This document shows positions 2,446 through 22,203 of a DNA stretch of 22,420 nt, piece by piece. Position 1 is the stretch's first letter. Each line of letters begins with the position of its first letter. The notes under the pieces are model-generated. The model ran no database searches. It was not told the origin of the DNA and saw nothing but the letters and a program-made list of their open reading frames with translations. The translations under genes and the position numbers were made by a program. The stretch comes from Neoconidiobolus thromboides FSU 785 (lineage: Eukaryota; Entomophthoromycota; Entomophthoromycetes; Entomophthorales; Neoconidiobolaceae): positions 1 through 22,420 of the forward strand of contig MU626533.1 of the NCBI GenBank assembly GCA_025603075.1. The letters are read 5' to 3'.

Positions 2446-2552
2446 ATATAGGAGTGTTTTTTTTGACTTCATTATTTCTTCCATTTTTTAAGCGCTATTT
2501 AAGCGGAAAATTTATTAGTAAAATTCTTAAATACAAAAATACATCCCCATAT
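2446..2552 (+). repeat. Hairpin MITE-like element, copy 1
   Basis: This 107-base element has inverted ends: ATATAGGAGTG on the left, and the complement of ATATGGGGATG on the right. The centre reads TTTAAGCGCTATTTAAGCGG, flanked by TTTTCC/GGAAAA arms. It is in the same orientation as copies 2 and 9. It sits 36 bases upstream of the ATG of the acetyltransferase pseudogene. A 70-codon ORF at 2454-2666 is produced by this element and is not a gene. Confidence 0.85.
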
Positions 2553-3176
2553 ATTATTTCCTTTATTGATATATATCTAACAACAAAGAGAGTTAATAGA
2601 TCGGTTCAATCAATCCTTGCTTTTATATTTCTTCAGCACTCAATGATTTTTTATTCGCAGATATAATTATAGCCTAATCTAATCGTAAAATTATATATCC
2701 TTGCCTGTTTATTCAGAATACTGATATTAGAGGTTTATTTAGTTATACTATGGGTTTTAACAGAAATCAATATTAAGGATGCCTAGTTTCAAAAAGAGAG
2801 TGATCAATCTTTATAATCGATATCCTTGAAGAGATAAACTCAATTTTCCCACATACAATAATGACGCAATCTAAAGTAGTGTTACTATGTTTAGCCAATA
2901 AACCGCTAAGTGGCTTATAATAGTATCTTCTCAACCATGATTTTGGTAAATTTTGTAAACAAACACCCTTTATATTCATAATCTATATGAGATGAATTAA
3001 ATAAATTACACTTAAAAATTCTACAAAAATTGTAAGCGTTTGTTTATGTTTGTTTTTCAGTAGTTAATAGTTAAATAATAGTAGTTTTTATACTTTTATG
3101 CTTAATGTTTATGTATTTCTATTGATATAATATTGTTTTTATAAGGTTCATATTAAAAAAACAGTGATTTTAATAG
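2553..3176. other. Intergenic stretch with an unassigned short minus-strand ORF
   Basis: Between hairpin copies 1 and 3 there is a 68-codon minus-strand ORF (2773-2979) whose codons look more gene-like than the surroundings (segments such as LPKSWLRRYYYKPLSGLLAK). I recognise no family and see no convincing start, splice sites or continuation. It may be a relic exon. Nothing else is seen. Confidence 0.3.
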
Positions 3177-3274
3177 ATATGGAGATATCTTTTTTAAAGA
3201 ATTCTACTGCTAATTTTCCCACTCAAATAGCACTTAAAATGGAAAAAGTAGTGAAACCAAAAAGCACCTAATAT
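3177..3274 (-). repeat. Hairpin MITE-like element, copy 3
   Basis: This is a copy of about 98 bases, inverted relative to copy 1. It begins ATATGGAGATATC, has the core CCCACTCAAATAGCACTTAA followed by ATGGAAAAAG and a GTGAAACC segment, and ends near GCACCTAATATATTA. The right end is the most diverged part. Confidence 0.8.
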
Positions 3275-3344
3275 ATTAAAAACAACCCTCGTTTTAGAAC
3301 CAAATAAAAAAATAAATATAATTAATTTAGTTAATTAATGTAAT

Positions 3345-3451
3345 ATATGGGAGTGTCTTTTTTGATTTCATTATTTTTTCCATTTTTTAAGTGCTATTTA
3401 AGTGGAAAATTTGTTAGTAAAATTCTTAAACACAAAAATCCATCACCATAT
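3345..3451 (+). repeat. Hairpin MITE-like element, copy 2
   Basis: This 107-base element has the same length and orientation as copy 1. Its ends pair as ATATGGGAGTG and the complement of ATATGGTGATG, and both flanks extend the symmetry to TAATATATGG. The core reads AAGTGCTATTTAAGTGG. Copies 1 and 2 carry C and C, or T and T, at the two corresponding core sites. The ORF at 3347-3535 comes from this element. Confidence 0.85.
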
Positions 3452-4506
3452 ATTATAAAGATATTTAGTTCAATTAATCAGGTAGTTTTATTTCCTTTAT
3501 TAAATAAAAAGTACATGGCCATATTTCTAGAATAAAAGGCTTTATTTTATAGTAAGTTTTTAATAAATAATATGCAATACTACCTTTTCTTGTAAATACA
3601 TATCTAAGGCGGTGTTTATTTAGTAATAAAAAATAGAGTAAAAGATAGTAGAAAAGCCAATTGTAGCATTAAAGTAAGATAAGTACTTTAGAATCAACTA
3701 AAGTTTTTTATACCAAATAAACTCACTCCTAGAGCTCTTCTACCAGCTTTGGATTCATCCAATTTAAAGTAACTAAAAAAGTTTATTAAGTAGAAGGCGC
3801 TTCTATTCAAGAATAAATGAAGAAGTAGGAAATAGACCACGTTTGTTCCCAAATACCATTTCGCAGTAATGTTTATAAACAATTCATATCGCAGAGATTA
3901 TAAGAAGTGATAAATAGGAATTGGAATAAGGAGAAAATAGCATCCGAATAAAAAATAACACTTTATCTCAAAAAATATTAGTACTATCAGTGTTATTACC
4001 TACCTACAATACTATTTATAAAATATTTATTTTGTGACTCTATTGTTGAGCGATGATATTGTTATTTTTTCATCAAATAAAAACGAAATCAATATATTAT
4101 TAAACTGATATAATAATAGATTAATATATCAGTAAAGCCAAAAGATTAATGTACTGATTATGACAATAAAACCATATATCAATTTATCAATACACAGGTA
4201 AATTCAATACTTCATATCCATTCATTCTTATATTATAAATAAGTAAAATTAATCTATTAATATTCAAATTATAAATCTATATGATTAATTTATTGAAATC
4301 TCTTTAAATTAAATAGACAATCTGTTTTTAATAATCAATAAGATATCATTGGTATTTTGAAAATAAATCTATTTTTTGTTTATACAAAAATGATTAAACT
4401 ATAAATATCATAAATAATGTTATCTCTAATAAAAAATTAAAAGCAAAATAAATATCAAATGATTAAGCAACCTTATAATTTTTTATTACCTATTTTAAAA
4501 ATATCC
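3452..4506. other. AT-rich stretch without a supported gene
   Basis: A 62-codon minus-strand ORF at 3694-3882 contains a hydrophobic run followed by LDESKAGRRALG. I recognise no family and cannot extend it, so it is at best a relic. From about 4020 to 4506 the sequence is very AT-rich with no coding signal. Confidence 0.35.
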
Positions 4507-6732
4507 TCATTCTACCATATAAACTTGCATCATATTATTAATAATAAAATTGATTTTTTTAACATCACTTATTGATAATCCTATTTCATGAACCTCATTT
4601 AATTCCTCAGTAATTAAACTTAATCGTTTATTTAAATTTTTAAGTGAAGTAGTGATAAACCAATATCTTTTAATGCAATCAAATAATAGTGGAAAATCAG
4701 ATAGACCATAAATAGACCAATAACTTAATGGAGACATATCTTTATATTGTTCAATAGTTGACTTTTTAGAATTTATTATATAATCTAAATAATCTTCTAA
4801 TTCCTCAAGACATTCGGTATAATTTTTTGGTTGGTTTAAATTAAAATAATGTGCTTTTATATATTTTTGTATCTTTCGAATCGCTTCTTGAGTCCTTATT
4901 TTTGGTAGTTTATAACTTAATTTCGATCCTGGATATAACAAATAATAAATATCTAAATTGAAATTACATTGTTCCAATCTATTAGTCAATAAATTCATTA
5001 TTTGTTCCTTTGTAACATAATTGAAATTATGTGCTTTTATATCTTCTTTGGGTTGATTCTCTCGAATAATTCTCATATATTCGAAAAACAAATTAGAAAA
5101 TTCATTTAATGGACTTGTACAATAATGTATTATATTTTCAAGTAATTTAAATATTAAACATATATCATCCATTTGTTTTAAGATAGTCTCCCATTTATTT
5201 AGTGTAAACTCATTGCGTAAACTTTTATCCTTTAAAATGTCATTATAACTTAATTGTTTTAGTAGTTTGTTGAAATTGCTAAAAAATTTGGGCCATACTT
5301 GAATATTTTCATAACTTTTAATCCATAACAAAAGATCCTTAAACTCCAATTTATATTGATCAATCATTCTTTTTAAATAATTATAATAATGATTGTTATT
5401 AATTTCAAAACAATTGTTATTTAACAATAAAACTAAATTATTAAAAAATCCCTCAAACTCTTTTAATTCCAATATATCCTTTAAAAAAAGAGAAAATGAA
5501 TTGTTTAAAAAAGAGATTATAAAAACATTTGGAATTTTGTCTTTTGTTATATTTATAATATTGCTATAACTTTCTATATCATCTAGAACTAGTGAGATAC
5601 ATTTATTAAAACCAAATCTCTTTCCAATTAAATCCACAATTTTTGAAAATTCTTCACTTAAATTAACTAATCTATTATATATAATATATTTAAAAAAATA
5701 GTTGTTACCTTGATCTATATTAACTAAGATTGTCAAATACTTAACATTTTCTTTAATTTTCACCATTTTAACTACAATCGAATAAAATTGACATTGTTGA
5801 ATTTCGGTATTGATCTTATCTTTTAAATTTCTATAAACATCTTTAATCACTGGTCTATATAATAAATTTAAATTTAAATTTTCCTTTTTCTTTAGCTTAT
5901 TTTTACTTAATAAATTAATGAAATAATCCAAACTTATACTTTTATGAAGATACTGTTGATTATATAACTTAAATGACTTTTTAAACTTTGATAGATTTAA
6001 TGTTCTTGGTTTTTTATATTTATGCTCTACTTTAGTTTCTTCTTTTCCATTATTGATATTAATGTTTTTTATTTGATAATCTCCCGTTTCAATAGTAAAC
6101 TCCCCGGATTGTTTTAGATTGCTTATACTAGAGCATGTGGTTGATTCTTGTTGGAAAGATTCTAGGTCCGATATCACTGCTAAATCATTTTGCTTCTTTG
6201 AAAAATTAAGCTTCTCATCAAAAAAAGATTTTTGACTAAAACTACGATCTTTGAAATTATTTAACTGATTGTTCAATTGTAAATTAACATTCTGATTTTC
6301 TTCAATATTATTGTTATCCCCTTTTGTTTTATTAATAAAACTCTCGGTTGGATTTTGGAAATCAACATCAATATTATTTTCTAATTTATATTTACCACTA
6401 CAACTACCATTAAATAAATGAAAATATAAATCCACTTGATCTTTTCTAATATTTTTTTTACATTTTTTACAACAACCAATATCATTTCTTAAATTCTCTA
6501 TATAAATAGTATAATCAATCTGTTGATTTTTAAATCCTTTTAGTAAATGATTATTATAAAACTCTTTTTCTTGAGCTGATTGACTTATACATTGTCCATT
6601 AATTAAATGACGATAAACTTCTTTTTTAGATAAGAGTAAATTAGTTTGGCATCGTTTACAGGACCCATATGTTACACTGTTAATTAATGTTACATAATCC
6701 AATATATTAAACTGTTGAATTAAATTGGACAT
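4507..6732 (-). CDS. hAT-transposase-derived protein with twin CCHC fingers (possibly domesticated)
   Basis: One uninterrupted ORF of 741 codons runs from the ATG at 6732; the open frame continues 14 codons further upstream without an ATG. Two fingers share exact spacing C-x2-C-x13-H-x5-C (C25/C28/H42/C48 and C88/C91/H105/C111). Their ends are alike (YRHLINGQC, YFHLFNGSC), which suggests a tandem duplication. An Asn/Ser/Lys-rich linker (about 120-245) follows. About 315-440 resembles the RNase-H-like region of DUF659/hAT transposases, including LVLDDIESY where active proteins have a T-D-N motif, and LFLKDIL. Residues 667-736 resemble the hATC dimerisation domain (PLSYWSIYG, then DFPLLFDC). 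The first catalytic Asp, the usual Cys/His pair and the hATC SER motif are not seen, so transposition activity is unlikely. An intact frame with a dead core fits a host-adopted DNA-binding protein or a recently inactivated transposase. Confidence 0.78.
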   Translation of the reverse strand: MSNLIQQFNILDYVTLINSVTYGSCKRCQTNLLLSKKEVYRHLINGQCISQSAQEKEFYNNHLLKGFKNQQIDYTIYIENLRNDIGCCKKCKKNIRKDQVDLYFHLFNGSCSGKYKLENNIDVDFQNPTESFINKTKGDNNNIEENQNVNLQLNNQLNNFKDRSFSQKSFFDEKLNFSKKQNDLAVISDLESFQQESTTCSSISNLKQSGEFTIETGDYQIKNININNGKEETKVEHKYKKPRTLNLSKFKKSFKLYNQQYLHKSISLDYFINLLSKNKLKKKENLNLNLLYRPVIKDVYRNLKDKINTEIQQCQFYSIVVKMVKIKENVKYLTILVNIDQGNNYFFKYIIYNRLVNLSEEFSKIVDLIGKRFGFNKCISLVLDDIESYSNIINITKDKIPNVFIISFLNNSFSLFLKDILELKEFEGFFNNLVLLLNNNCFEINNNHYYNYLKRMIDQYKLEFKDLLLWIKSYENIQVWPKFFSNFNKLLKQLSYNDILKDKSLRNEFTLNKWETILKQMDDICLIFKLLENIIHYCTSPLNEFSNLFFEYMRIIRENQPKEDIKAHNFNYVTKEQIMNLLTNRLEQCNFNLDIYYLLYPGSKLSYKLPKIRTQEAIRKIQKYIKAHYFNLNQPKNYTECLEELEDYLDYIINSKKSTIEQYKDMSPLSYWSIYGLSDFPLLFDCIKRYWFITTSLKNLNKRLSLITEELNEVHEIGLSISDVKKINFIINNMMQVYMVE

Positions 6733-7311
6733 CAAAAGTTCAACTTTAGAAAATAAATGAAGCTTTTGATTCAAAATATTCTATCTTGGGATTTTTTTAA
6801 TTGGTTAATGAGTAGTGCTAAAATGCAATAACTAACTACATTGTACAGTGTTTTGCAAAGATGTTATAAAATAAGAGATGATTATTATAGATAATCAAAA
6901 CTTGAATGAATTTTATTTATGAAAGAAAAATGAACTAAAAACTTTAAAATAAATATTATGAATTATAAAAATTTACCTAAAGATCAGACTTTATCAATAG
7001 AAGGTGCAAAAAACATTATTTAAATTACAATTCTTTTTAATACAAACCTATTATATTAGCATACGATAAAAATATTGATTGAATTTATGCAAATCATTAA
7101 TATAGCATAAAAAATATAATTGTAATAAGCTAAAATCGAATTTACCTAATTTATTATTGAAAAATATACAAATTAAATTTAACAATATAATTAGCAATAC
7201 CCTTCAAAGACAAAATAAAATACGATTGGTTTATAAATCATATTACTATTCAAAGGTAATTTTGTATAAGCAAAGTCAAGTAAGTGTAATATAGTATAAT
7301 ATTTAGTTTAT
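6733..7311. other. Intergenic stretch between two minus-strand genes
   Basis: This region lies upstream of the hAT-derived gene and downstream of BRF1. It should contain the promoter of the former. I see only AT-rich sequence. I found no hAT-type terminal inverted repeats, though I could not search for them systematically. Confidence 0.5.
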
Positions 7312-9466
7312 TTATTTTTTCTTAACAAAAAGTTCATAATCAATTGGCTCATCTAAACATTTAGTCAATGAATCAAAATTAATTTTCCTAGTTTGTGGTA
7401 TTTGTTTTAGTACTTGTTTTGTTGCTTCAGCTAAATTATCGGAATCAGCATACAGTTTTTTTTTAGGGCCTCGCTACAATTAATAATTATAATTAATAAT
7501 TAAATTGAGTTTTAGACAAAATAATTGCTTGACTCTTACTTTAATCTTTTTCTTTATAATTCCATTCCTTTCTTCTTCTCTCAATCGTTCTTCTTTAGCT
7601 GAATTATATAAATTAATATAAACAATTGAATAATCAAAACTCAGAATAAAATAGTACCTTTTTGAGCTGCTAAATAGTCTGCATTTTCACCTGTCCAAAC
7701 TTCTGTTTTCCTTTCGATTTCATTTTGATTTAAAAACATATTTTGTAATTCAATATCATCATCTAACTCATTTAAATTTCCATCATCATCTCCTTCTTCT
7801 TCATTTTCTTCCCATTTTTCATAATCTAAAAATAACTATTTTGTTAAATTCAAATAAGATAAAATAAAATAAAATTGCCTGTTTTTATTTTAACAATTGA
7901 AGTTTTCGGTTCTGCTATATAATTATTAATTTCTTCTTTTAAATTAATTTCTTCTTCAGCTTCATCTAATGACATTTCTGAAGATGTTTTTTGATGGCTT
8001 TCCTCTATTCAAATTAATAAAATTTTTTACTTTAAACATTTAATCAACTTACCATCCACATTATTCGCTTCCTTTCCAATTCCTTTTTCGACTTCTATAT
8101 TACTGATTTTTATACTTTTATTAAGATTTCTATCATATTTATCTATTTCTATCACTTCATTTGATACTTTTCCATTAAAATTGGAAAGATTGGCTTCAAC
8201 AGTTTCTTCCTTTTTCTTAACTAACAGCGCTCTTTCAGCTAAGGATTCCGCTTTACGAGCACGCTTATAAGCAGGAGGATCTTCAAAAGCTTCCAAATTA
8301 ATGTTATGGAAATCATCTACCGTCATTTTTCCTGTTTCTGTACTTGCAAATTCTTCCAATCTATTTAAAAATGAATTTTCATTTTAATTAATTAAATTTT
8401 GATTGACCTCTTTTTAACCGTATCACTTGACATTCTTACGATTTTAACAATTTGATTAATATTTCGATTAAAATGATGGATACGAGATGCTATTAATAAA
8501 CCTAACGTTTAAATATAAATTTAAGAATCCCAACTAAACTTATAAAAAAAAGTACTAGCACCGCAGATCCCTGCTGGTCTTCTACCAGTCGTCATCCAAT
8601 CTCTTTTCATTCTGGTGACTAACCGAATAGCTGTTTCTGCCACTTTATGTTGTTTATCACCAAAGCCAAGACAAGCAGCAAATCTTGAAATATACAAAGA
8701 AGGATCAACTAAAGCTACTTCACTTTTTAAATTTAATAAACCAACTAATTTAACGAAGGCTGAACCTAAAGTAAATACACTAGCCTATTTATAAACCATA
8801 AATAAAAACAACTTAATAAATAAAATTTACTTCGGCTAAATCCGAAAAATCAATCAACATATGAGTGGTTTGATTCACTCGACAAGCAGCATATAAACAA
8901 ACTGCAATAGTGACTTCTGATTTACGACCACGAGAAAAATTATGAATCAATAAAAGTTTAAAAAAATTCATAGCTTTATCAACATAATGATCCGCCAAAT
9001 AAAGCGCAGTGCCAAATTTTCGTGCTAATTCATTAGCTAAGAAATATCAACATCAACACGATTCATTATTTCTTTTTTTTATTGATTTACCTTTTGTTAT
9101 TGTTAATTCATTATTTGAACTATTTGTAAATGAACCCAGTCCAGTTCTTAATTTAGCACCACCTAAAAAACCGAATTAAAAATCATCATTCTACTCAACT
9201 AATTAACTAACATTACTTTGCCCGAAGCCCACCATAGTACCAACTAAACTATGGCCACCAAAAGCATTATCAGCAAAAGCAAGTTCGGAAACAATTGTAT
9301 TTTCTTCTTGTACCTAAAGAAATGAAACATTGATTTTATTAACGATGATAATGAAATGTTGAAAATTCCAAAAAAAAAAACCTACCGTACCACAACCAAT
9401 ACAAACTTTATTGCCTTCAGCTTCATACGTTTCAAAATTTACTCCACCACAACTTTTACAAGTCAT
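7312..9466 (-). CDS. BRF1: TFIIIB subunit BRF1 (TFIIB-related factor), 11 exons
   Basis: BRF1 recruits TBP and RNA polymerase III to tRNA and 5S genes in the nucleus. Exons, read from the start: 9386-9466, 9217-9313, 9091-9162, 8831-9036, 8556-8784, 8408-8501, 8053-8360, 7879-8004, 7658-7825, 7540-7598, 7312-7473. They join in frame to 533 residues. The N-terminal zinc ribbon uses C3, C6, C22 and C25, followed by ENTIVSE. The first cyclin fold covers about 85-165 (HNFSRGRKSEVTIAVCLYAA, HMLIDFSDLAE). The second covers about 170-262 (ALVDPSLYI, GRRPAGICGA, LEEF). The Brf homology block near 425-465 has the WTGENADYLAAQ signature, and the end has the KINFDSL tail. Introns are 46 to 72 bases. Intron 8 is either GC-AG, as given here, or canonical GT-AG with exon ends 7895 and 7835. 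No lesions are seen. Confidence 0.93.
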
Positions 9467-9861
9467 TTTTTGTTATTTCACTAAAAATTGAATATATATT
9501 TAAAAGTTGATGATGTTTTTCTATAATTAGCAAATATTATAGGACAGATTGAAGACCTAATAAGACTTTGAATCTAGAAGTCGATTTTTCATTTTTTAGT
9601 ACGCAATTTTCAAGGCTTGGAACAGGATAAAAATTTCACTTTATCTTCAATAGAATAATATTTTAAAATAAATTCCAATATAAAAGTTGCCTGTTTAACG
9701 AATAAAGGGAACAAAAATCAAATACATAAATCGATAGAATAGATGTAAATATTATACTTAAAATCTATGGCTCTTTATTTTTATTATTTTTATTATTTTT
9801 ATTAACAAAGTAACTGATCAATCAGAAGTAAAAATTTATAACAGCAGAATTTTCAGGATAT
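9467..9861. other. BRF1 upstream region with a simple repeat
   Basis: This is the presumed promoter side of BRF1. A TTTTTATTA-type simple repeat lies at 9776-9804. No gene is seen. Confidence 0.5.
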
Positions 9862-9966
9862 ATATTGGGGGTGTATTTTTTTATCTAATAATTTACCAAC
9901 AATCTTTCCATTTAAATAGTGCCTAAAAAATGGAAAAAGTGGTGAAACTAAAAAAATATCCCCATT
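9862..9966 (-). repeat. Hairpin MITE-like element, copy 4
   Basis: This copy of about 105 bases starts ATATTGGGGGTGTATTTTTT, has the core CTTTCCATTTAAATAGTGCC followed by ATGGAAAAAG and GTGAAACTA, and ends ATATCCCCAT. It is inverted relative to copy 1. Confidence 0.82.
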
Positions 9967-10290
9967 AAATAATTATGTTTTAACTTGAATTTAGAAAATC
10001 GTTGTAGTATTAAAAGTGTATTGAACTGTTCTATCACATTTGTCCATTTCAAAAAAATAAAATTTTATACCATATTCTTATATTTCCAGTAGTTCACATC
10101 AAACTATTCAATTTTAATTAACGCTAGTTAGAAGGTACTAAATTTTGAAAAAAACAAGTTGGCTATTAAAGGTCACTACTACTTATAGTTATTTTTTTAT
10201 CATTATTTGGGATTTATCACTACATTAAAACAAAACAATATTTCTAAAAATGTGTATTTTTGAGATGCTTTTAATATATCGAACTTCCCA
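9967..10290. other. AT-rich intergenic stretch
   Basis: I see no coding frame, splice-like structure or repeat between hairpin copy 4 and the long direct repeat. Confidence 0.5.
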
Positions 10291-10544
10291 TCAATCTTTT
10301 TACTAAGTGAGTAAAATTTTATATAAAAGTCATGACAATGAAATCGATTTTTTAAAGCTCATCTTAAAGCCTCTCATAATTAATTAAATCTGATTTTAGT
10401 CAATAATTTGTAAACATATATCTATACAGTACCACTCATTAGTGATTTGTGGTTGATTTATAAACATTGTTTTATGTTTAAAAAATAGCTATTATATTTA
10501 GTTTATCTAGGTTATCTCTTGAATCTAAAAGATAAATAAAGCTT
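10291..10544 (+). repeat. Long direct repeat, left copy
   Basis: Bases 10296-10544 (249 bases) read identically to 12758-13006. The five bases before them match at four positions. The unit contains a TTTTACT/AGTAAAA stem near its start and a CACT/AGTG stem in its middle. It does not begin TG or end CA, carries no ORF and shows no clear target duplication, so it does not look like a classical LTR. Confidence 0.92.
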
Positions 10545-11392
10545 TATAAATAATAATTAGGTCACTTTAATCGGACTTTTAGGGTCTTTATAATTAAGGT
10601 TAAAATAATTAACAGGGAAAGAACGGTACCTCACTTTAAGTAGTTAATACTAAAACTCCCTAATAATGTAAAATACCCAATCAATACATCTATAATTAAT
10701 ATAAATATTCTTAATAATTGTTATTGTTTTGAACATTTAAAGGATCGTGCGATTTTGGATCATTAACAGTAACATTGAGGTAAATTGTAACTCAAATATC
10801 TAATTTGTAAAATAAAATACTTTATATTTTTATTTGATATATAACAATTATAAGACTATCCATTTAACTGATATATCAAAATAGCTACAATTTTTATTAT
10901 AAGTTTATTGTTAGAAGCCTAGTCACTGAAATAAAAAACACTTTTTTATTAGAATTACGTTAGTTTTACATTAATTAAACTCCTCTTAGGTGTAAAGAGT
11001 TATGTCCAATCTTAACAGTTTTAGATTTAAGCTGCACTTGCTTAATATGGATTTTATTATAAACGCAACCTACCTATTCTTTTAAATATTTCAGTATTAT
11101 ATAACAACCTTTATTAAATTAATTAAATATTATTACTATGCAATACTATTTTTTTCTTAAATTTAGTTTAAAGAACTTTATGCTTTATTTGTATGAAAGA
11201 CTTAACAGACACAGCTATTGAAGAGGGAGTATGATAAAAATAGGATCAGTACTTATAAGATAATCTTTAAATAATAATGAAATATGATAATAACTAGCAC
11301 TTCGGTTGTTTGGTATATAAACAACTTAAATATTGCAAAAATAAATATTATCGTTTAGGAAAAAATAGAATTGAAAACTAAAAATCTTTACC
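10545..11392. other. Upstream region of the secreted-protein gene, inside the direct repeats
   Basis: This is the unique left part of the segment between the two long repeats. It is AT-rich with no supported ORF. A TATA-like site occurs near its right end. Confidence 0.45.
11314..11321 (+). promoter_or_regulatory. TATA-like element upstream of the secreted-protein gene
   Basis: TATATAAA lies 72 bases upstream of the ATG at 11393, a reasonable place for a fungal core promoter. In AT-rich DNA such a match can arise by chance. Confidence 0.35.
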
Positions 11393-12034
11393 ATGAACAG
11401 CAAATTAGTCTTTTTACTCAGCGTTTTATTTACTTACATTATGTGTGAGCCAATTACTTTGTTTTTAGTAGGTTCCTATGGAATTGCTCTTGCTGGTGCT
11501 GCTATATTTAACGCTTTGGCTATAGGTACTGCTATTACTATCACTGGACTTGGTGTTGGTGCTGCATTAAAAGAGGCTGGGGTGTTTGATTCAAAGTCAA
11601 ATACTTTAAAATTAGATGATACTAAATATAAAGCTACTTTGTATTGCAAGAAATTCGAAGGTAATCTGGCTATAGTTGATTCTAAAATACAACGCTTCCT
11701 TACTAGTACTAACCTAAAACAGATGGATCTCTTACGTTATAAAGTTACTGATGAGGATTGGTTCTGTACTCAAACTGGACTAGCCAGTGGTAATATGATA
11801 ACTAAATTACAAGGTGAGATTGATTGTGAAATCTATGTTTCAAAAAAGAATGATAACTTAATTCCTTGTGGCGACCGTTATGGATGGAAATACGATAACA
11901 ATAATGCAACAAAAGTAATGTATTATAAAGTTGAGAATAAAGGGAAAACCGGTTACTATGTAATAGGTGATAATGGCCGTTTAGGTATAAGAGAATCCCT
12001 TGGCTACCCACCTTTGAAGCGTCGCTCTGTCTAA
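11393..12034 (+). CDS. Small secreted protein of unknown family, four cysteines
   Basis: This intact single-exon ORF encodes 213 residues. Residues 1-18 look like a signal peptide (a lysine, then a hydrophobic core, with likely cleavage near C18/E19). Residues 21-60 are strongly hydrophobic and rich in Gly and Ala (G27, G30, G35, G45, G52, G54, G56), which could be a membrane-inserting or buried segment. The rest is polar with four cysteines (C85, C125, C145, C159), compatible with two disulfides, and ends in KRRSV. I do not recognise a family and assign no function. Codons appear more balanced than in the flanks, and the ATG is preceded by ACC. The gene is the only one between the two 249-base direct repeats. 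A secreted effector-like or surface role is possible but unproven; a short membrane-anchored protein is the alternative. Confidence 0.72.
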   Translation: MNSKLVFLLSVLFTYIMCEPITLFLVGSYGIALAGAAIFNALAIGTAITITGLGVGAALKEAGVFDSKSNTLKLDDTKYKATLYCKKFEGNLAIVDSKIQRFLTSTNLKQMDLLRYKVTDEDWFCTQTGLASGNMITKLQGEIDCEIYVSKKNDNLIPCGDRYGWKYDNNNATKVMYYKVENKGKTGYYVIGDNGRLGIRESLGYPPLKRRSV

Positions 12035-12752
12035 TCCAAAAGTATCAATCACTCTGATGACAACTTTTTTGTTTTTGATCAGTCAATACTTTTGTACAAA
12101 TATCGAATCTTATTTTTGTTTTAAATTAGAATAAATTTAAACTATAGAAAAATACAGTCTTTATTTTAGCTTTAACTTGACCCTGATTTGGGCTTAGTAA
12201 CTGATAACAAAATTTTCAAAATGTATTAATACCATCTATTATGGCTGATTCACCTTGAATTTTAGGTCTGATTTTTATTTAAAATAGCTGTTTACTATTT
12301 TCAATTCAAGTAAAATTATATTAAAATTTTTAGTTCATAATTTTTGTTACATTTTAATAAGTTGTAGTTTATAAACTGATTTGAATTAGCTTTTTGACTC
12401 CCTTAATTTTACTGCTAAACTGATTTTGTACTATTATTTAAAATGAAAACTAACTCTCAAATGTTTTAGTTTTCTTTCATTTTTTTATTTCAAAATATTT
12501 CTAATTAATTATAATTTAACATTAGCAATACAAGAAAAAGATACTAGCAATAATAATAGTTGAAATAGTAGCATACTGGATTATATATATTTATAAGTAA
12601 GCTCTTAGTTTAAGTTTGGCATTGTAAGCTTTAATTCAAATCGTTGGTTTTAAGTACAAATCTTAAAAGATCAACCAACCAAATGACTGATTTTAAAAAG
12701 TATTGCTATTTCTTTTCAATTTGAGGTAAACCCAAGTATATAATATTTTATG
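12035..12752. other. Downstream region of the secreted-protein gene, inside the direct repeats
   Basis: Apart from the stem just after the stop codon, this AT-rich stretch shows no ORF or repeat that I can support. Confidence 0.45.
12037..12094 (+). other. Inverted repeat just after the stop codon of the secreted-protein gene
   Basis: CAAAAGTAT at 12037-12045 is repeated in inverse as ATACTTTTG at 12086-12094, with a 40-base loop. It would lie in the 3'UTR and could form an mRNA stem. Its role is unknown. Confidence 0.4.
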
Positions 12753-13006
12753 TCAACCTTTTTACTAAGTGAGTAAAATTTTATATAAAAGTCATGACAA
12801 TGAAATCGATTTTTTAAAGCTCATCTTAAAGCCTCTCATAATTAATTAAATCTGATTTTAGTCAATAATTTGTAAACATATATCTATACAGTACCACTCA
12901 TTAGTGATTTGTGGTTGATTTATAAACATTGTTTTATGTTTAAAAAATAGCTATTATATTTAGTTTATCTAGGTTATCTCTTGAATCTAAAAGATAAATA
13001 AAGCTT
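12753..13006 (+). repeat. Long direct repeat, right copy
   Basis: This is the partner of 10291-10544, in the same orientation. The 249 bases 12758-13006 match without a difference; the single difference is at the fifth base of the extended repeat. It lies about 250 bases upstream of the lipid kinase start, so it may overlap that promoter region. Confidence 0.92.
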
Positions 13007-13258
13007 CATTATAAATATGGAGTGACATATCATAATAATCTGTTTGATACTAATTCCTATCTGACCAATAAATAGTCAATATAGAGTAACAATGATTTAT
13101 TATTCTTCAAAATAATTTAAAAAGTTCCAACTTTCAAATGAAATTATTCGGAAACCTTTTTATAGCTAAAAAATGACCTAGTTCCTTTGTGGAAAATAAT
13201 ATAAAAACAATACAAAAACCTAACCATTTTTCTAAATATTCCTTTTTTACACCAAATT

Positions 13259-15031
13259 ATGATTAACGAAGAATTCGACTTAAAGATTAAAGAAGGCTTT
13301 TTTACCACATTGATTAATTGTAATTCTAAAGTATTGGCTAAAATTTCCATTTCTAATGAATGCATTGTATTGATCCCAAGTAAAATTTAAATAATTTCAA
13401 GTTTGCATTAATTAAGGTTTAGATCAAGAAGAAGAAGAAAACTTCAGCAAAAGTATTGGAAAATACATTGGAAAAAGTTTACAATTTGACGGAAGTCATG
13501 CAACAATCAATACGAAAACTTTATTTGCTGCAAGATTGACCAAAAAGAATCTTAATACTGAAAGTATATTATTAGAAAATGCTCCTAGTTTCTTACTCGA
13601 TGAATCGACAGTTATACAAGATGAAGAAAGTCTAGTGTATTTTACTTTATTTGGACTTGATTTTATTAGCAAATCTGGAAGTGGACAATTATGTGACAAA
13701 AAGCATCTTCCAAAGCTAAGAGCATTTACTTTTGAAGTATCAAATAAATTAGCAACATCCTTAATCGATTATTTTAATATTTATTTTCAAACGAATCAAG
13801 GTAATCAACTTTTTATCCTTAATTTATATAAGTATATCAAAAACTATTAGATCCGGGTAAAACAACGGAAAGTTACGTTAAGAAGAAATATTTGGCAATT
13901 ACAAATCCAGTCGGTGGTACTAAAGATGCACATAAAAAATTTCATAGTATTACTGCCCCTATGCTTAAATTAGCTGGTATCGAGGTGGATTACTTTGAAA
14001 CTACTTATTTATACCATGGTGAAAAGATAGTTAAAACTTCGGAAAACATTCAGCAATATCATGCAATAATAACCAATGGTGGGGATGGGATGATTTATGA
14101 AGGATTGGTAAATACATATCTATATTAGACAAATGCCTTATTTATAATTAGAATGGATTTTTAGGACGTGAAGATTATCAGCAATTTAAATCGATTCCAT
14201 TAGCAATTTTGCCTGGAGGTACCATTTAATCAGAATTATTAAAATCGATTTAATTAAAGAATAGGTACCGGGAATGGATTAGCAACTTCATTAGGGATTG
14301 TGAGCTTTGAAGCAGCTTCATTTACATTAATAAGGAACACAGTAAATAGATTTGATATATTAGCAGTTTATTCATCTCCAACATTAACCACACCAAGGTA
14401 TGGGATACTTGATTTTGCTTGTGGATTTTTAAATGATATAGATGATACTACCGATAAAATGAGATTTATGGGTCCCCTTAGGGTTGACTTATCGGCAGCT
14501 TATCTCTTCGCTCGAAACAAAAAATATCCTTTTAAAGTTTATTATAAACCGGTAAATAAAACAGCTTCAGAGCAAGTTGATAATGTAAGTGAAACAAATT
14601 CGCCACCAGAAAATTTATTAGCAAAAGATGGTGGAGAGTTGGGAGAAGGATGGGTTGAAGCTGATTTAAAAGTCTTCTTTTTAGCAGTTACTAATGTACC
14701 ATATGTTAGTCATAACCTTAAAATAGCAGAAAGATCAAAATATAATTCGAATGATATGTCTTTAGTTTATGATAAAGATCCTAAACTTGGAACAGTTAAA
14801 ATATCAGGAGCTTTTCTTAAAGAAGATGAAAATCCAGGAAAGGGTCATGTTACTTCCCTATTGACTGAAAAAAACATAACCAATTTCATTATAACTTCTT
14901 CAGATCCTAAAAAACCAGATAGCCTTTTACCATTTTGTCGCATTGATGGTGAGAAATTTGTTCGTTCTAAAGCTTTTCAAGTCACTGTTTTGCCAAGCCA
15001 TATCAATTTTTTAATCCCTATGAGGCTTTAA
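13259..15031 (+). CDS. Sphingosine/ceramide kinase family lipid kinase, five exons
   Basis: This protein probably phosphorylates a long-chain sphingoid base or a related lipid with ATP. Exons 13259-13379, 13417-13800, 13851-14107, 14152-14218 and 14265-15031 join in frame to 531 residues. The introns are 37, 50, 44 and 46 bases, all GT-AG. The diacylglycerol-kinase-type catalytic domain begins near residue 182. NPVGG (187-191) is the first conserved block. GGDGM, with the probable catalytic D247, lies at 245-249 and leads into YEGLNGFLGR. LPGGTGNG (274-281) is the nucleotide-binding block. A later block (FACGFLNDID, then FMGPLRVDL) fits the sphingosine-kinase C4 region, and DGE occurs near the end. 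The N-terminal 180 residues are poorly conserved, as is usual. The start was chosen because the preceding frame is closed. Which lipid is used cannot be told. Confidence 0.91.
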
Positions 15032-15186
15032 TTGATTTATTCTGCTTCATTAGCTTGTCTCTAACGATTAAAATAAATAATTATTAAGCTAAATATATTG
15101 ATACTGTTGTATCTTTCATTATAATAAATTTCCAACAAAATGTCTAATACTAAGGCTGTTTTTAATTTTACAATTTAATTTAAAAA

Positions 15187-16021
15187 TTAGATAATATATA
15201 CTATAATTAATGTGGATAGAATGTAAGAGAAGATATGGTAATTAAAGATTTTAGCTCCATGAGTAGCACTACTCAAGCAGGTAAGACATAGGTTAGCTAT
15301 ATTAAATAAAGTTAATAACTTAAAATGATAAACAAAGCAAAAAAACTTACATCCTCCATTCCCAGCTTTATACAGACGAAATTGCCTTGTAAAAGGATTC
15401 AATGCACCTGCAGGTGCACCAACTAAATAAGAACGAGCAGTATCGTAAACATACAGCTTATAGTTGTCCGATTCTATCAAAGGGGGATTTGTAGGGTCGG
15501 AAGTAAAGTTAGCCATATCCCAACTATATTCTGTAGTATCTCCAGGTAACTCTAAGCCTATATTATAAGTGATAACATTACCAGTTTCTTGACGTATAGC
15601 AATAATAGAAATGTTATTGGGTTTGATTTTTAAATTATCATCAAATTTCCATTTCATTTTAGCAACACTTCCTATGGCCCATCCAGCAACAAAGTTTTGG
15701 GCCACTGGTGGATCTAAAAAGGTGATCATGCCTCTAGCAGCATTAGGCGCGATCCTTGCTGATGATGAAGACTTCGAAGAGGAAGAGGACTTGGAAGGAC
15801 TTCCAGAGCTTTGTTCGTTTGAAGTACTTTTGCTAGGACTTGAACTTTCAGTGGCTGAAGCATTTGAAGATGAGGAGCTTGAGTTTGAAGAGTCTGACTT
15901 TTGACCATCTATAAAACAGTTAGATCAAGTAATGGTGATGTATGAAAGAATTACTTGTAACAACAAAGAAAATAGTAAGAATAAATAAAGTTAATAGTTT
16001 TGTATTGAAAATGTTATACAT
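15187..16021 (-). CDS. Serine-rich GPI-anchored cell-surface protein with Kre9/Knh1- or DUF7137-like domain
   Basis: Three exons (15955-16021, 15351-15908, 15187-15296) join in frame to 244 residues. The introns are 46 and 54 bases, GT-AG. Residues 1-22 form a hydrophobic signal peptide (LLTLFILTIFFVVT). Residues 24-75 are Ser/Thr-rich, a likely O-mannosylated stalk. Residues 83-208 start ITFLDPPVAQNFVAGWAIGS and end around YKLYVYDTARSY and FRLYKAG. This pattern of strands resembles fungal Ig-like domains of cell-wall proteins. The C-terminus has small residues (SSATHGA, 217-223) followed by a hydrophobic tail with no charge, typical of GPI attachment. A cell-wall or plasma-membrane location is inferred; a role in glucan assembly is only suggested by Kre9-type similarity. 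The gene converges with the lipid kinase, with 155 bases between the stops. Confidence 0.78.
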
Positions 16022-17001
16022 GATTAGATAATAAAGATAAAAAACAATTTCTAGATTTAAAGCTTTTAAATCTTTTGATATTATGTTGTGGGTGGTTTGT
16101 TTTTGAGATTTTGTAAACTATAACGGTAAGTGTTTTAAAATTTCCGTCAGCATTATATTTTTTATCCAAAGTCATGGCTTAAACTTACCATTTGTTTGGC
16201 TAAGGTTCTTTAAGCTGCTTAAAATTTCATTTGAAATTTACTTTATTAAGTAATTTGACATCAATTGAAATTTTATTATTTTATTAGTTTGGTCATTTAA
16301 GGCTTTATAACATTATTTAAAAACTTCAAAAAGCACATTGAAATCCATATTAAAATCAATTTAATATAAGCAAGTTTAATATAACTTCGCAATCAAAGTT
16401 TTGAGTTTTTATGAATAATAAGAAATTGTTACTATTATTTTTATTTTTATTTTTAAATTAATTTTATTATTATTTCGACATGTTAATTTGATAATAGTTT
16501 TTACATTTTATAAATAGCTCTATAAGCTCTTTGACAAGCTTGGCACAGAGTAAGAAATGCCATAACTTCAGCTAAAATTAGTTTTTAATGTTTAATATTA
16601 TTATAATCTTCTATAAATAACTAAAATATAGTTAAAGCTAATGATATAGATAAAAGATTCAACATAATAAAGTACCGAAATGGCTTACATTGTATCGCTT
16701 TTGTGAGTGTATGTTCACTTTAAATTACAGATTAAAGCTCATATTGTTTTAAATTAACTAATCTTATTTTGCTAAATTATTCCACAAAGCTAAAGGTAAA
16801 ATTATAAGGAGCTTTATCCAATTAATAAAAATATTATTAGTTGTTAACTCGAATTTAGTAAAATGAATGTCTATGAACATAGTTTGAAAGCCACTCTATA
16901 ATTAAGGGAGATTTACAGCATTTTCAACCTATTATGATTATTTTGAAAATCAGACAAAATGTTTTGAATTTTTTAAATAATTAACAACGAAAGTGAATAA
17001 A
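16022..17001. other. AT-rich intergenic stretch
   Basis: This should include the promoter of the GPI-anchored protein gene at its left end. I see T-rich simple sequence near 16435-16480 and no supported gene. Confidence 0.5.
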
Positions 17002-17105
17002 ATATGGTAATGTGTTTTTGTATTTAAGAACTTTATTAATCTTTCCACTTAAATAGTGCTTAAAAGGTGGAAAAAGTAATGAAATCAAAAAAAACATCCC
17101 CATAT
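17002..17105 (-). repeat. Hairpin MITE-like element, copy 5
   Basis: This 104-base copy starts ATATGGTAATGTGTTTTTG, has the core CTTTCCACTTAAATAGTGCT followed by GGTGGAAAAAG and ATGAAATC, and ends ACATCCCCATAT. Its right end is one of the best-preserved termini in the window. Confidence 0.87.
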
Positions 17106-17598
17106 AATATATTATGGTGAGAGCTATTAGGTTTAACAATTAAGAGATTTATTTCCATCATAATATTTTTATTTTATTCAGTTTTGTTGCATTTATAAGA
17201 AAACTCAGAATCTGTTTAAATTTTTTTGAGATAGCTGTCATGGGTTGAAAATATTAGATAAAATGCCATTAAATTAGGATTTAACGCAATAATTTACAAA
17301 GCGATATTAATTAGACGAATTTTCAAAACTAAACAGTATACAAACAATTTTAACATTATCTAACCAAAGGATAAAAATATACTAAACCCAAGTATCAAAT
17401 TGTATAGTACAGTTTTAGTAAATAATAAAAATTGAAAATCAATCTCAAAAAATCGATCTGCTCGAAAAGGATCAATTGACCAATCAAAGCTTTGGATCTG
17501 TGGTTTCAATCCAATTTTTGCAATAAAATGGGATGTAAAATTTTTTCCAAGCTTGTAGCAAATAAGGATTGAAGAAAAATTTTGATTTTATTGATAGG
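17106..17598. other. Upstream region of RPS19
   Basis: This AT-rich stretch between hairpin copy 5 and the pyrimidine tract probably contains the distal promoter. I see no defined motif. Confidence 0.4.
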
Positions 17599-17652
17599 CC
17601 CCTGTCGCCCTATTTCCTTCTCTTTTCTCTGACTACCAGAAAATACGCCAAG
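17599..17652 (+). promoter_or_regulatory. Pyrimidine-rich initiation region and probable 5'UTR exon of RPS19
   Basis: Bases 17599-17630 are dominated by C and T (CCTGTCGCCC, then TTCCTTCTCTTTTCTCT), unusual for this AT-rich window and typical of ribosomal protein gene start regions. They are followed by a short stretch ending CCAAG, next to the GTAAAC donor-like site at 17653. No ATG lies between the tract and this site. Confidence 0.5.
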
Positions 17653-17827
17653 GTAAACTAAAAATACAATATAATTAGTAATAGATGGCGATATAGTAAT
17701 TGAACAAAAAAAAAAGTGATACAAAGAATAAATTGGAAACAAAAAATTAGTTGAAGCTCAGCAAATGGAATACCAAATGAAGAAATTAAAAAGAAATTGG
17801 AATAAAATATTTAAATGTGATATTTAG
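17653..17827 (+). other. Probable 5'UTR intron of RPS19
   Basis: The sequence begins AAG|GTAAAC and ends TATTTAG directly before the initiator ATG, giving a 175-base GT-AG intron. It contains an in-range ATG (in AAATGG), so splicing would be needed for a clean leader. This is inferred from splice signals only, and no strong branch site is visible. Confidence 0.5.
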
Positions 17828-18361
17828 ATGACTAGCGGTATTACTTTAAAGGACGTCAACCATAATGAATTCATCAAAGCCTATTCTTCTCACTTGAAGC
17901 GTTCCGGCAAAATCGAAGTCCCAACCTGGGTTGACCTTGTCAAAACCGGTACCCACAAACAACTTGCTCCATATGACCCAGACTGGTATTTCGTTCGTTG
18001 TGGTAAGTAGTAAATTGTCAATTTTATTTCGTAAGCCTAATGATTGTTTTAGCTGCCACTGCCCGTCACATCTACCTCCGTCGTGGTGTCGGTGTAGGTG
18101 CTCTTAAAATGAGAACCGGTGGACCAAAGAACCGCGGTAACCGTCCTTCAAGACGCCAAGAAGGTTCCGGTTCCGTTGCCCGTAAAATTCTCCAATCATT
18201 AGAAAAACTCGGTATCCTCGAAAAAGAGGAGCGCGGGTAAGATTAATTTTAGCTAGTAGTTTAAATGTCTAACATTATTCAGTGGTCGTAAAATCACCGA
18301 AGCCGGACGTCGTGAATTAGATCGTATTGCTGTTCAAGTTGTTCGTGCTAAAGACGAATAA
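17828..18361 (+). CDS. RPS19: 40S ribosomal protein S19 (eS19)
   Basis: Ribosomal protein eS19 is a small-subunit protein needed for 40S maturation. Exons 17828-18002, 18053-18236 and 18283-18361 join in frame to 145 residues, the usual length. The two introns are 50 and 46 bases, with GTAAGT/GTAAGA donors and a CTAAT-type branch site. Family blocks are evident along the whole chain: [75 protein letters not shown] and GRRELDRIA. Codons are much richer in C- and G-ending forms than in neighbouring genes, consistent with very high expression. The start matches the family's N-terminus. AATAAA follows the stop within ten bases. Confidence 0.98.
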
Positions 18362-20002
18362 GCCAATAAAATTTAACCTAACTTAGATGCTGTTGTGATA
18401 AGTTATTTAACTAAAAATATTATTTTTATTAGGTATATTATATTTTGTTGAGTTTGTTTAAATTTTATTTTAGTGAGGTTTGTATGTTTAATTATTGATA
18501 GATACGCTACAAAGCCATAAACGATTGAAGTTTAGATCTATGTAATAATAAAACGGAGAGGCTTTAGGATATCACTTATGCTTGTAGTTTAGGGTAATTA
18601 GTTTTGTAACGAAAAGTGTTTACTACACAATACTGAAAGTCATTATACGCATAGTTTTTTATTAGTTAATAATTATATATAGCTTTACCGTATTAACTCT
18701 TACTATTGATTAAGTAAATATTACTTGCTATATGATAAATAGATTTACCTCCTATGAACAGGACATAAAACCTTTTAAATAAATGGTTTTAACATATTGA
18801 GATTAATATTTTTTGGATTTAGTAGTTATGTTTTATGTTCTTTTTACTTTATACTTTAGAATATTAACTACTTAGATTATTTACCAGCATGAATATATAC
18901 TGTTTAGTGATTTATTAAGTTTATTAAATGAAATTAATGTGAATGGAAATATTAAAAATAAAATTTAAGCTCTCGTGAACAAATAAGGGAGTGCATTGTA
19001 ATAAAATAATCTTATAGATATAACTATACAGGGCATATAAAATTCAACTACTTTTTTACCTTAATTATACAAAGCTAAGGCTATCAAATCTAAATATTAA
19101 ATATAGGTAGTGATATTAACTGAAACAGCTATTTTAGACTTGTATGATGTATCATTTCAAACCGAATCCATTAAAAAGAAGCTAATTTATAAAACTATCC
19201 CTGTTTAAATCTAAAAAAACCTTTGTTATCATATAAAATGTTAAATTTAAATAATATTATAGTGAAAAAATTTTAATGCTGAAAAACTAAATAAGAAAGA
19301 TAGAATTGTTTCATTATATAAAAGCTAATTTTGTTTAATTTTGTTTAGTTTATCCACTTTTTAAGCAATATGAAATCAAAACTCTTAATAGCAATCCTTA
19401 AATCAAAAAATACCACATTGATGCATCCCCTATTCTGAAAGCTTTAAAGAAAAATGATGTTTATTAACAGTCAGATTATCGAGCTATATAGCTTTAGTTA
19501 ACAACTTGGAGATTTTTGATGAATTCTTAATGACTAAAGGGGTGTTTTAAAGCTGCTATTGTTATTAAGAATAAGACTTTTTATAAGGTGTTTTTGCCTT
19601 TTTAGATTGGTACTTTATTAAACTGGGATATTTTAGTTTGCTCAATTAGAGTTGATTATCTTTATGTATACATTCAATGTATACTGGCGATCAAATATGA
19701 TTAAAGATGTGTAGCAAAGTTGTTGTACGAATTAAGTAGCTAAGGGTTTAATTTTGTCAAGTTAATATTACACTTTTTTAAGTTTTATTTTAAAGTTTAA
19801 TAATAATCTTTTATACATAGCCTATTGTAAATAAAATACTGTATAGCTTAATATACTATCACAATTAACATTTCAAATAAATCACACAGGCATAATCTAA
19901 ACTACTTTTTCCTATTTAGATATCTACTTTATAGAACTATAAACCTAAAAAATAAAAGCTAACAATTAAAATCATTCAATTTATTTGTAGCATAATATTG
20001 AG
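18362..20002. other. Long AT-rich stretch without a supported gene
   Basis: About 1.6 kb with no ORF, splice-like structure or family match. It holds a small palindrome GTATACAT-TCA-ATGTATAC at 19666-19684 and a possible decayed hairpin element near 19350-19435. Confidence 0.45.
19350..19435 (+). repeat. Possible decayed copy of the hairpin element
   Basis: TCCACTTTTTAAGC, a CTTAAATC segment, AAAAAATACC and a final GCATCCCC occur in the order of the family, with several gaps. The left terminus is not recognisable. This could be chance similarity in AT-rich DNA. Confidence 0.3.
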
Positions 20003-20395
20003 TTAAAAATGAGTTTGGTATTGGAATTTAAAGTAGATGATACCATTTTGATTATTATCAATGGTGATTGGCTCTTCATAAATTCTTCAACGTGGACTAT
20101 CCGGCATGTCCTCTCTACCTAAAGCCTTACACCTTCTCGTAAAAGTGCCCCAGCTCACCCCCTCTCTAATGACCTTCTTATCTCCCCAATTATTGACCAT
20201 GCATCGTGATTTAATAGCAAGAACAAAAGAATCTGAAAGAGAATGGATCTGTTTGCTTTGTTTGTTTTCTATTAAGTTAAAGTCATCTTGTTCTGCTAAT
20301 TTAGCTATCGGATCCTAAGCGATAATTATAAAAAATAAAATATTTTTTTTAGTTAAATTTACCTTTAATTGATGGAATAGCGTAACAATTAACAT
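20003..20395 (-). pseudogene. 3' fragment of an unidentified spliced gene with an internal TGA
   Basis: The minus strand from 20314 to 20003 is open for 104 codons, apart from one TGA at 20087-20089, and ends in TAA. The translation looks strongly gene-like (SDSFVLAIKSRCMVNNWGD, then REGVSWGTFTRRCKALGRED before the TGA, and RIYEEPITIDNNQNGIIYFK after it). A 48-base GT-AG intron (20315-20362) joins it in phase to an 11-codon open stretch (20363-20395) containing HQLK. That stretch begins at an ATG directly preceded by a pyrimidine-rich CCCCTTGTAG acceptor-like site. Upstream the sequence turns into an AGTTTTAT simple repeat, so the 5' part seems lost. I do not recognise the family. The local GC content is clearly higher than the flanks. 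The short plus-strand ORF here is its shadow. If the gene really ends at the TGA, it could instead be a truncated but intact exon. Confidence 0.55.
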
Positions 20396-20726
20396 CTACA
20401 AGGGGTAAGATTGATGACTATAGCTTATTTCAGTAGGATACTCTTATTAAAGTAAGTTAGGTTCAAATGATGATACTTTGTGTAGCTTATCAGTTTTATC
20501 AGTTTTATTAGTTTTATGAGTTTAAGTTTTATTATAGTTTAGTTATTTGTACATATTTTCCTATTTTTTTTAGTTTGATTTATTGTTTACTAGATTTATT
20601 TCTAGATTTATAACCTTTTACTACCTTTGGTTTGCTGTTGCTTTTTATTTGTATATTAACTACTATTACTTTTTGTTGGCTATTAGTTGAGCACTCAGTT
20701 TATTTGATTGTTAATTATTATTTAAT
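20396..20726. other. Intergenic stretch with an AGTTTTAT-type simple repeat
   Basis: Near-tandem AGTTTTAT(C/T) units lie at about 20488-20535, next to the 5' side of the gene fragment. No gene is seen. Confidence 0.55.
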
Positions 20727-20827
20727 ATATGGGAATATATTTTTGTGTCTAGGAGTTTTACTAACAGTTTTTCCGCTCAAATAGTGCTTAAAAGATCGAA
20801 AAAAATAATGAAAAAATACCCCAATAT
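20727..20827 (-). repeat. Hairpin MITE-like element, copy 6
   Basis: This copy of about 101 bases starts ATATGGGAATATATTTTTG, has the core TTTCCGCTCAAATAGTGCTT and ends TACCCCAATAT. The arm after the core (GATCGAAAAAA) is diverged. A 63-codon minus-strand ORF at 20788-20979 begins downstream and ends inside it; it is spurious. Confidence 0.8.
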
Positions 20828-21024
20828 TTAAATTTTAATAACCAAATTGACCTTAAAGATTGAAGATGATAAGTAAAATTTAAATAGTTGAGATTTTGAA
20901 TAGTTTTTTGAATAGCGGTTTGACACTGTTGATAAAATAGTTCTTGTATTTCATAATAAAATACCTTTTGAAAGTACATTTATTATGTAATAGCTTATCT
21001 GAGTCCACTATCTTTTATATAAAC

Positions 21025-21112
21025 GGGGATGTATTTTTTGTTTGAGGGTTTTACTACCTTTCCGCTCGGATAGCGCTCAGAAATGGAAAGTGATGAAACC
21101 AAAAAACATCTG
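21025..21112 (-). repeat. Hairpin MITE-like element, copy 7
   Basis: This copy of about 88 bases starts GGGGATGTATTTTTTG, has the core TTTCCGCTCGGATAGCGCTC followed by ATGGAAAG and ATGAAACC, and ends AACATCTGC. It is the shortest recognisable copy, and its right end lost the CCCC run. Confidence 0.8.
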
Positions 21113-21657
21113 CAAACAATAAGCCTTTTAGGAATACACCATATATTATAAGTAAATCTATGAGATGTATATTCGATTTAAATGTATAGATAATAACAAT
21201 AGATAATTTAAGTCTACAAAGTGGATTTATCAAATCTCAAAATAGATTTAACTGATGAAAATAGAGCCTAATAAATTAAAATATCGAATTATTTATAATT
21301 ATTAATAAAGCTGGTAAAAAGAGAATGTATAAGCTGATAAATATAGACGCACCTTTAAAAGACCATCAAAAATTGACAGACATTAAATTGAGCTCAACTT
21401 TTTATGGCTATAGTAAGGAATTGAAATAATTGCCATAAAAGATGCATTATCCATTGATACTAATATAAACATCAACTGGCAGAAAATCATTAATACAATA
21501 ATGCTAATGATAGTAACATTGACTATACAAAAGCCCTTCCATAAATCATTATAATATTAAATTTTAGAATTAGGTAACTAATATCTTAGAAGCATAAAAG
21601 GAATAAAAAAAGTTGGATTAAATGCAATCGATTAATAGTGAAGAGAAAATGAAGCAA
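21113..21657. other. AT-rich stretch between hairpin elements
   Basis: I see no coding or structural signal that I can support. Confidence 0.45.
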
Positions 21658-21706
21658 ATGGGGATATCTGAACTGATTTCATTTTTTTAATCCAATTTTT
21701 AAATTA
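21658..21706 (+). repeat. Truncated half-copy of the hairpin element
   Basis: ATGGGGATATCTGAACTGAT followed by TTCATTTTTTTAATCCAATT matches the left half of the family in the copy 1 orientation up to the TTTTTAA before the core. The right half is absent. Confidence 0.45.
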
Positions 21707-21762
21707 TAAATAGGGTAACCCAATAAAACGAGATAGTATTAAAATAAAACCCAGCTTTTTAA

Positions 21763-21868
21763 ATGTGGGGATATATTTTTTTGTTTAACAATTCTACTAA
21801 TAATCTTTCCACTCAAATAGCGCTTAAAAAACGGAGAAGTAATGAAATCAAAAAAAACATCCCCATAT
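21763..21868 (-). repeat. Hairpin MITE-like element, copy 8
   Basis: This 106-base copy starts ATGTGGGGATATATTTTTTT, has the core CTTTCCACTCAAATAGCGCT and then ATGAAATC, and ends ACATCCCCATAT. Both ends are well preserved. Confidence 0.87.
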
Positions 21869-22023
21869 ACTGTTTTATGTCAAGAACTTTGCTTGTAATT
21901 CTATAAAAATAAACTCTTTATCAAAAAGCAAAAGTACTTAATAGTTTTAAAAAGTCATAATAAAAAAAGTATACTAAAATATGTTATAGACTGAATTTTT
22001 TTTATTAAGTTTAAAATTGCCAG

Positions 22024-22044
22024 ATTGGTAAAAATTTTACCAAT
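22024..22044. other. Perfect 21-base palindrome
   Basis: ATTGGTAAAA and TTTTACCAAT flank a single central A. It lies in non-coding DNA 56 bases before hairpin copy 9. Its function is unknown. Confidence 0.6.
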
Positions 22045-22099
22045 ATAGTTTATGTATTAATACTAACTAAAATTAATATATATATATAAATACATAAGA

Positions 22100-22203
22100 A
22101 TGTAGGGGTGTTTTTTTTGGTTTCATAACTTTTTTCATCTTTTAAGCACTATTTGAGCGGAAAAATTGTTAGCAAAATTCTTAAACATAAATACATCCCT
22201 GTG
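22100..22203 (+). repeat. Hairpin MITE-like element, copy 9
   Basis: This copy of about 104 bases is in the orientation of copies 1 and 2. It starts ATGTAGGGGTGTTTTTTTTG, has the core TTTAAGCACTATTTGAGCGG and an ATTCTTAAACATAA segment, and ends ACATCCCTGT. Confidence 0.84.

Follow-up and report, generated by a model that had tools for sequence, protein, structure and literature searches.

Tourist and Stowaway, two types of miniature inverted-repeat transposable element (MITE), duplicate TWA or TA at their targets. Sola transposons generate 4-bp duplications, encode a DDD transposase and carry terminal inverted repeats of 11-1124 bp, according to the accessible part of PMC10741241. Within this group, the Sola2 elements of dictyostelids have inverted repeats of 12-13 or 21 bp and 4-bp AWWT duplications (ATAT, AAAT, ATTT; accessible part of PMC3627910), and the accessible part of PMC11075540 lists Sola-2 families in the fungus Rhizophagus irregularis. 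Here we describe a family of ~99-bp MITEs from contig C276 of Neoconidiobolus thromboides FSU 785, a stretch of 22,420 bases analysed over its whole length (hereafter the window) and belonging to an assembly of 23.1 Mb in 392 contigs. These elements, which duplicate 4 bp on insertion, are very probably internal-deletion derivatives of a 2.36-kb Sola2-like transposon whose DDE transposase moves them in trans.

Like Tourist and Stowaway, the family is short, non-coding, bounded by inverted ends and present in very many copies; unlike them, it duplicates a 4-bp AWWT. The larger element resembles the dictyostelid Sola2 elements DFa and PPa in its 4-bp AWWT duplication, its short terminal inverted repeats and the possession of its own transposase, whereas DFa and PPa, as far as the accessible text of PMC3627910 describes them, are longer than the 2.36-kb fungal element, with an 888-aa transposase and a Fanzor cargo. 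With the Sola-2 families of R. irregularis it shares an early-diverging fungal host, and the accessible text of PMC11075540 describes no MITE of such a kind there. A literature search, with subscription papers mostly outside its reach, found no MITE reported from Conidiobolus or Neoconidiobolus; only PMC12387763 matched 'Conidiobolus' and 'miniature inverted-repeat' jointly, and its matching text has the phrase within a MITE-Hunter reference.

The preliminary description of the window had reported nine copies of the repeat, in both orientations and mostly 98 to 107 bases long, and had taken them for a widely spread non-autonomous DNA transposon. All of these points hold; for the last, the evidence consists of defined ends, duplicated target bases, empty sites, a number of dispersed copies in the thousands and a relative that has matching ends and encodes a transposase. 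A profile hidden Markov model (HMM) trained on 50 complete copies from outside the window recovered all nine on both strands with 45-84 bits in its first build (Table 1 gives scores from a later build of the same 50-copy profile), as well as a tenth, degraded copy at 19334-19413 (15-16 bits); 20 dinucleotide-preserving shuffles of the window gave no match at E<=1e-3. Full-profile matches span 96-107 bp including the flanking ATAT, so that the elements are short (<600 bp), homogeneous in size and too short to hold a gene. Over the whole genome, where a search had been proposed as a check, motif counts indicate thousands of dispersed copies. The exact motif ATATGGGGATGT occurs 1107+1106 times genome-wide, against 0+3 for the reversed control, two perfect ends spaced 60-90 bases apart 208 times against 0, and the core CAAATAGYGCTTAAAA with up to two mismatches 2867+2849 times (5,716) against 30+36 (66), or ~5,650 copies. 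In 46.6 kb from 14 loci picked for their Tc1/pogo genes we counted 15 copies, 1 per 3.1 kb (three of the 15 lie in L094, which overlaps a MITE-picked locus), and extrapolation of this density would perhaps give ~7,400 copies genome-wide. The nine copies of the window are ordinary for this genome, since ~7 are expected per 22.4 kb.

The consensus of the element is ~99 bp long, GGGGATGT...ACATCCCC, with terminal inverted repeats of 8 bp exact, in keeping with the shared inverted ends first noticed in the window. To define the boundaries, flanks were aligned for copies retrieved with a core profile (219 copies, 165 near complete, 160 distinct), 97 of which are imperfect at one or both ends. For these 97, 8 by 8 flank positions were examined for identical letters on the left and the right, with shuffles as the reference. 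Covariation stands out on four diagonals and no others (z 4.0, 8.1, 7.7 and 3.7; next highest cell 2.8), and the left four positions read A in 85, T in 79 (A in 12), A in 78 (T in 12) and T in 92, that is, AWWT. The corresponding counts in all 160 copies, which include some chosen for their ATAT ends, are A 148, T 142, A 141 and T 155, and a palindromic preference extends outward, with A at -7 in 116/160 and T at +7 in 109/160. The duplicated target consists of 4 bp, AWWT and mostly ATAT; the G run is therefore the true end of the element, and ATAT belongs to the target. The copies thus have the defined boundary whose absence would have spoken against a transposon, and the TA or TAATAT duplication first suggested is unsupported. 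An early reading from few copies as a 2-bp TA duplication was likewise overturned by the four-diagonal covariation, and the counts in the 97 copies do not fit TTAA, the target of piggyBac and Kolobok.

Insertion is further documented by paralogous empty sites, found for 9 of 226 masked copies with 4 to 17 bases between the flank matches. Among the clearer cases, a single ATAT is kept at the empty sites of L057 (within a TA run), L010:1973, L069 and the window copy at 21764; several paralogues of L009 keep ACAT, ACGT or ATGT, and that of L063:160 keeps ATAC. The empty paralogue of the window copy at 2446-2552 lies on C28 within a TATATATA run, where the length of the duplication is ambiguous. 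L044 was rejected as an empty site, as the subject carries 88-91 other bases there.

The search for a longer element with the same ends and a transposase gene, also proposed in the preliminary description, led to a 2.36-kb element with partly matching ends. The complete larger element, at positions 795-3149 of L105 (C11:75200-79200), measures 2,355 bp and is flanked on both sides by ATAT (GGGGCTGTCC...GACAACCCC). Of the first 17 positions of its two ends, 13 agree, and its open frame comprises 566 codons, including a 490-base N stretch. The transposase has an RNase-H-like DDD/E core, with weak, largely RNase-H-like matches in the Foldseek viral library, and a Pfam scan of eight proteins of this transposase family gave no convincing match. 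An open reading frame (ORF) of 415 codons in L063, with no Pfam match, resembles three hypothetical proteins of N. thromboides FSU 785 (69-76% identity over 33-57% of the ORF); one of the three, P0014, matches C236 at 97-99% in two pieces and has at least 134 matches in the genome, many with stops (107 of 376 candidates scored). Relatives of the transposase occur in Smittium, Furculomyces, Dentiscutata and metagenome contigs.

The end motif AWWTGGGGNTGTCYRAATTRG, allowing one mismatch, occurs 96+97 times genome-wide and 0 times in the control. Having been derived from few copies, L105 included, it is biased to the larger family, though not to any orientation or distance. Among 100 end-motif places listed, 26 point inward at a transposase locus no more than 1.3 kb away (25 of 79 such loci) and one points outward, and 15 of 21 distances between a 3' end motif and a transposase locus fall at 736-816 bases. 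A side observation from the same 100 places is that 29 are found no more than 1.6 kb from a contig start, with the element continuing past the contig edge, and none in the opposite orientation, which points to assembly breaks in the larger repeat; complete copies of this element are probably missing from the assembly.

The MITE has the same kind of ends as the transposase-encoding element, with partial identity beyond 8-10 bp. Members of the larger family in which ATAT is followed by GGGGATGT exist (L049, L055). Beyond the first 8 bases, the left end of the MITE matches four 5' ends to a degree reached by 9/2,000 shuffles and its right end matches three 3' ends to a degree reached by 24/2,000, whereas crossed comparisons are unremarkable (908/2,000 and 342/2,000). 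Similarity of both ends in register is the pattern expected if the MITE arose by internal deletion from a relative of L105, and the transposase of the larger element, or of its GGGGATGT-ended sub-family, would be the one that moves the MITE.

A number of observations weigh against this interpretation. Similarity to L105 alone is weaker (left 70/1,000, right 12/1,000 shuffles), identity to any member of the larger family read is limited to 8-10 terminal bases, and no counterpart of the central stretch CACTCAAATAGCGCTTAAAAG of the MITE was found in that family. Fragmentation and stops affect many of the transposase matches, the N stretch leaves part of the L105 catalytic region unread, and not all nine empty sites are clean, the exceptions being L022, L049 and window copy 2446. 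Finally, the putative membership of the larger element in Sola2 likens it to published descriptions by target, ends and fold, not by transposase sequences.

The limited terminal identity would also suit a different transposase, the GGGG-TGT end and the AWWT target being shared with the larger element by convergence, and the genome does offer 22 Tc1-type matches over the cut-off and two of pogo type. We regard this as unlikely: both ends are similar in register, some members of the larger family have an exact GGGGATGT, and the 4-bp target is the same. Moreover, Tc1- and pogo-type partners were rejected after inspection of 14 loci, up to ~1.5 kb on each side, where no GGGG-type end pair brackets the gene. 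Much less probable still is a MITE of the Tc1/mariner type that duplicates 2 bp, TA, in which case the outer A and T would be element bases or a target preference. In its favour, TA is central in ATAT and covariation is strongest on the inner two diagonals (z 8.1, 7.7); yet four positions covary, the outer two as direct repeats (z 4.0, 3.7), while their inverted-repeat partner cells lack a complement signal (z -0.7, 0.6, 1.7, 1.8) and the copy at 21025-21113 has AAAC on both sides.

The hairpin look of the family reflects the inverted ends and, inside them, a short inverted repeat that is eroded in old copies. The central imperfect stem first described is confined to young copies: the near-consensus copy L001 folds at z -3.0 as single-stranded DNA, while six window copies range from z -2.7 to +0.97, several of them folding no better than shuffles. 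The inner stem pairs more than slid registers, as expected of a stem derived from the consensus, and it shows no covariation beyond shuffles (89.0% of cells paired against 88.6%). RNAalifold found no consensus pairs among 71 copies and Rfam no match at the gathering score in the window, so that the structured RNA named at the outset as a refutation was not found. A structured RNA gene family or another selected functional hairpin, in spite of a mean column identity of 86% over the 71 copies, the fold of L001 and the 89% of inner-stem cells that pair, has a negligible probability given these results and the existence of empty sites.

For the MITE, the superfamily that the ends had seemed to leave unsettled is narrowed by target, ends and fold to a Sola2-like type; the 4-bp duplication is of the AWWT kind known from Sola2, to which we infer that the larger element belongs. 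Internal deletion of this element would have left ~45 bp of each end to form the MITE. Devoid of a gene, the MITE would most likely be mobilised in trans by the Sola2-like DDE transposase and inserted, presumably by cut-and-paste chemistry, at AT-rich palindromic sites with the preference AAT-AWWT-ATT, 4 bp of target being duplicated on insertion. It is also conceivable, although we would not favour it, that the partner transposase forms a distinct, unnamed DDE lineage that targets a 4-bp AWWT in early-diverging fungi, here with an extremely successful miniature derivative.

Four copies on four contigs are identical over 107 bases and five more are 99% identical, which suggests that the MITE was recently active; the flanks differ among three of the identical copies (L001, L036, L057). 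Median divergence from the consensus is 9% in the 160 copies, a set biased to well-preserved ones. ORFs of at least 150 aa are overlapped by 1/223 copies, against a random mean of 20 and minimum of 10 in 200 trials, the sole such ORF being a transposase fragment; at 100 aa or more there are 11 overlaps against 32 at random. These counts suggest an avoidance of coding DNA, in a test that leans to low values because insertion itself breaks an ORF. The ORFs listed for the window agree with the earlier remark that no exon is interrupted by a copy.

Regarding arrangement, the orientations of 130 neighbour pairs (39 +-, 39 -+, 30 -- and 22 ++) show a mild, unexplained excess of opposite ones (78/130). 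A composite element made of inverted MITE pairs ~440 bp apart was considered and dropped, its masked middle at 21869-22101 being unmatched in a stringent masked comparison; a looser one links this middle to pieces of the larger element. At 21619-22097, around the MITE at 21767, the 3' part of the Sola2-like element survives as a weak relic. In L009:739-2231, a 555-bp inverted repeat, 97.7% identical, consists mostly of Sola2-like element sequence with a MITE in its centre.

Table 1. Copies of the MITE in the window.
Feature	Position	Strand	Details
MITE copy	2446..2552	-	core 2450-2548; ATAT at 2446-2449 and 2549-2552; 86.8 bits; paralogous site on C28 (L101) without copy
MITE copy, degraded	3177..3274	+	ATAT at 3177-3180; decayed on the right, where the boundary is approximate; 48.0 bits over 3177-3267
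MITE copy	3345..3451	-	core 3349-3447; ATAT on both sides; 82.2 bits
MITE copy	9863..9967	+	core 9867-9963; flanking repeat decayed; 67.8 bits
MITE copy	17002..17105	+	core 17006-17101; ATAT on both sides; 80.7 bits
MITE relic, weak, absent from the preliminary description	19334..19413	-	15.0-15.7 bits; weakest match at E<=1e-3
MITE copy	20727..20826	+	core 20731-20822; 61.1 bits
MITE copy	21021..21117	+	core 21025-21113; AAAC at 21021-21024 and 21114-21117; 54.0 bits
MITE copy	21763..21868	+	core 21767-21864; ATGT left, ATAT right; 86.7 bits; empty site with single ATAT in L010
MITE copy	22101..22199	-	core 22105-22199; outer end cut by neighbouring repeat starting at 22200; 82.3 bits

The last copy abuts part of a second repeat family, of 467 bp with ends TGTGAAATCT...ATTTCACA, which occupies 22200-22420 and is truncated by the contig end. 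Some other copies of this family have 4-bp direct repeats (CCAG, AGAG, ATAT); it was rejected as a longer sibling of the MITE, as its ends differ (TGTGAAAT...ATTTCACA). Elsewhere in the window, 10291-10555 and 12753-13017 form a 265-bp direct duplication, 98% identical and 2.46 kb apart. Positions 1-1065 are 99% identical to the start of C28 and 1326-2448 are 72% identical to C28:10304-11425, so that C276 and C28 look like related segments. A 741-codon ORF at 4507-6732 (-) lacks a Pfam match and has pairs of cysteines close to the N-terminus, and an NmrA-type protein has its best named matches in N. thromboides FSU 785 at only 47%, which fits paralogues.

N. thromboides is described in the accessible part of PMC10515909 as predominantly non-repetitive, with 13.5% repeats; the 99-bp family would account for an estimated 2.4-3.2% of this compact 23-Mb genome. 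Together with its likely partner transposase, the MITE makes a small, testable two-component system, and the AWWT rule provides a simple aid for recognising such transposons in other early-diverging fungi.
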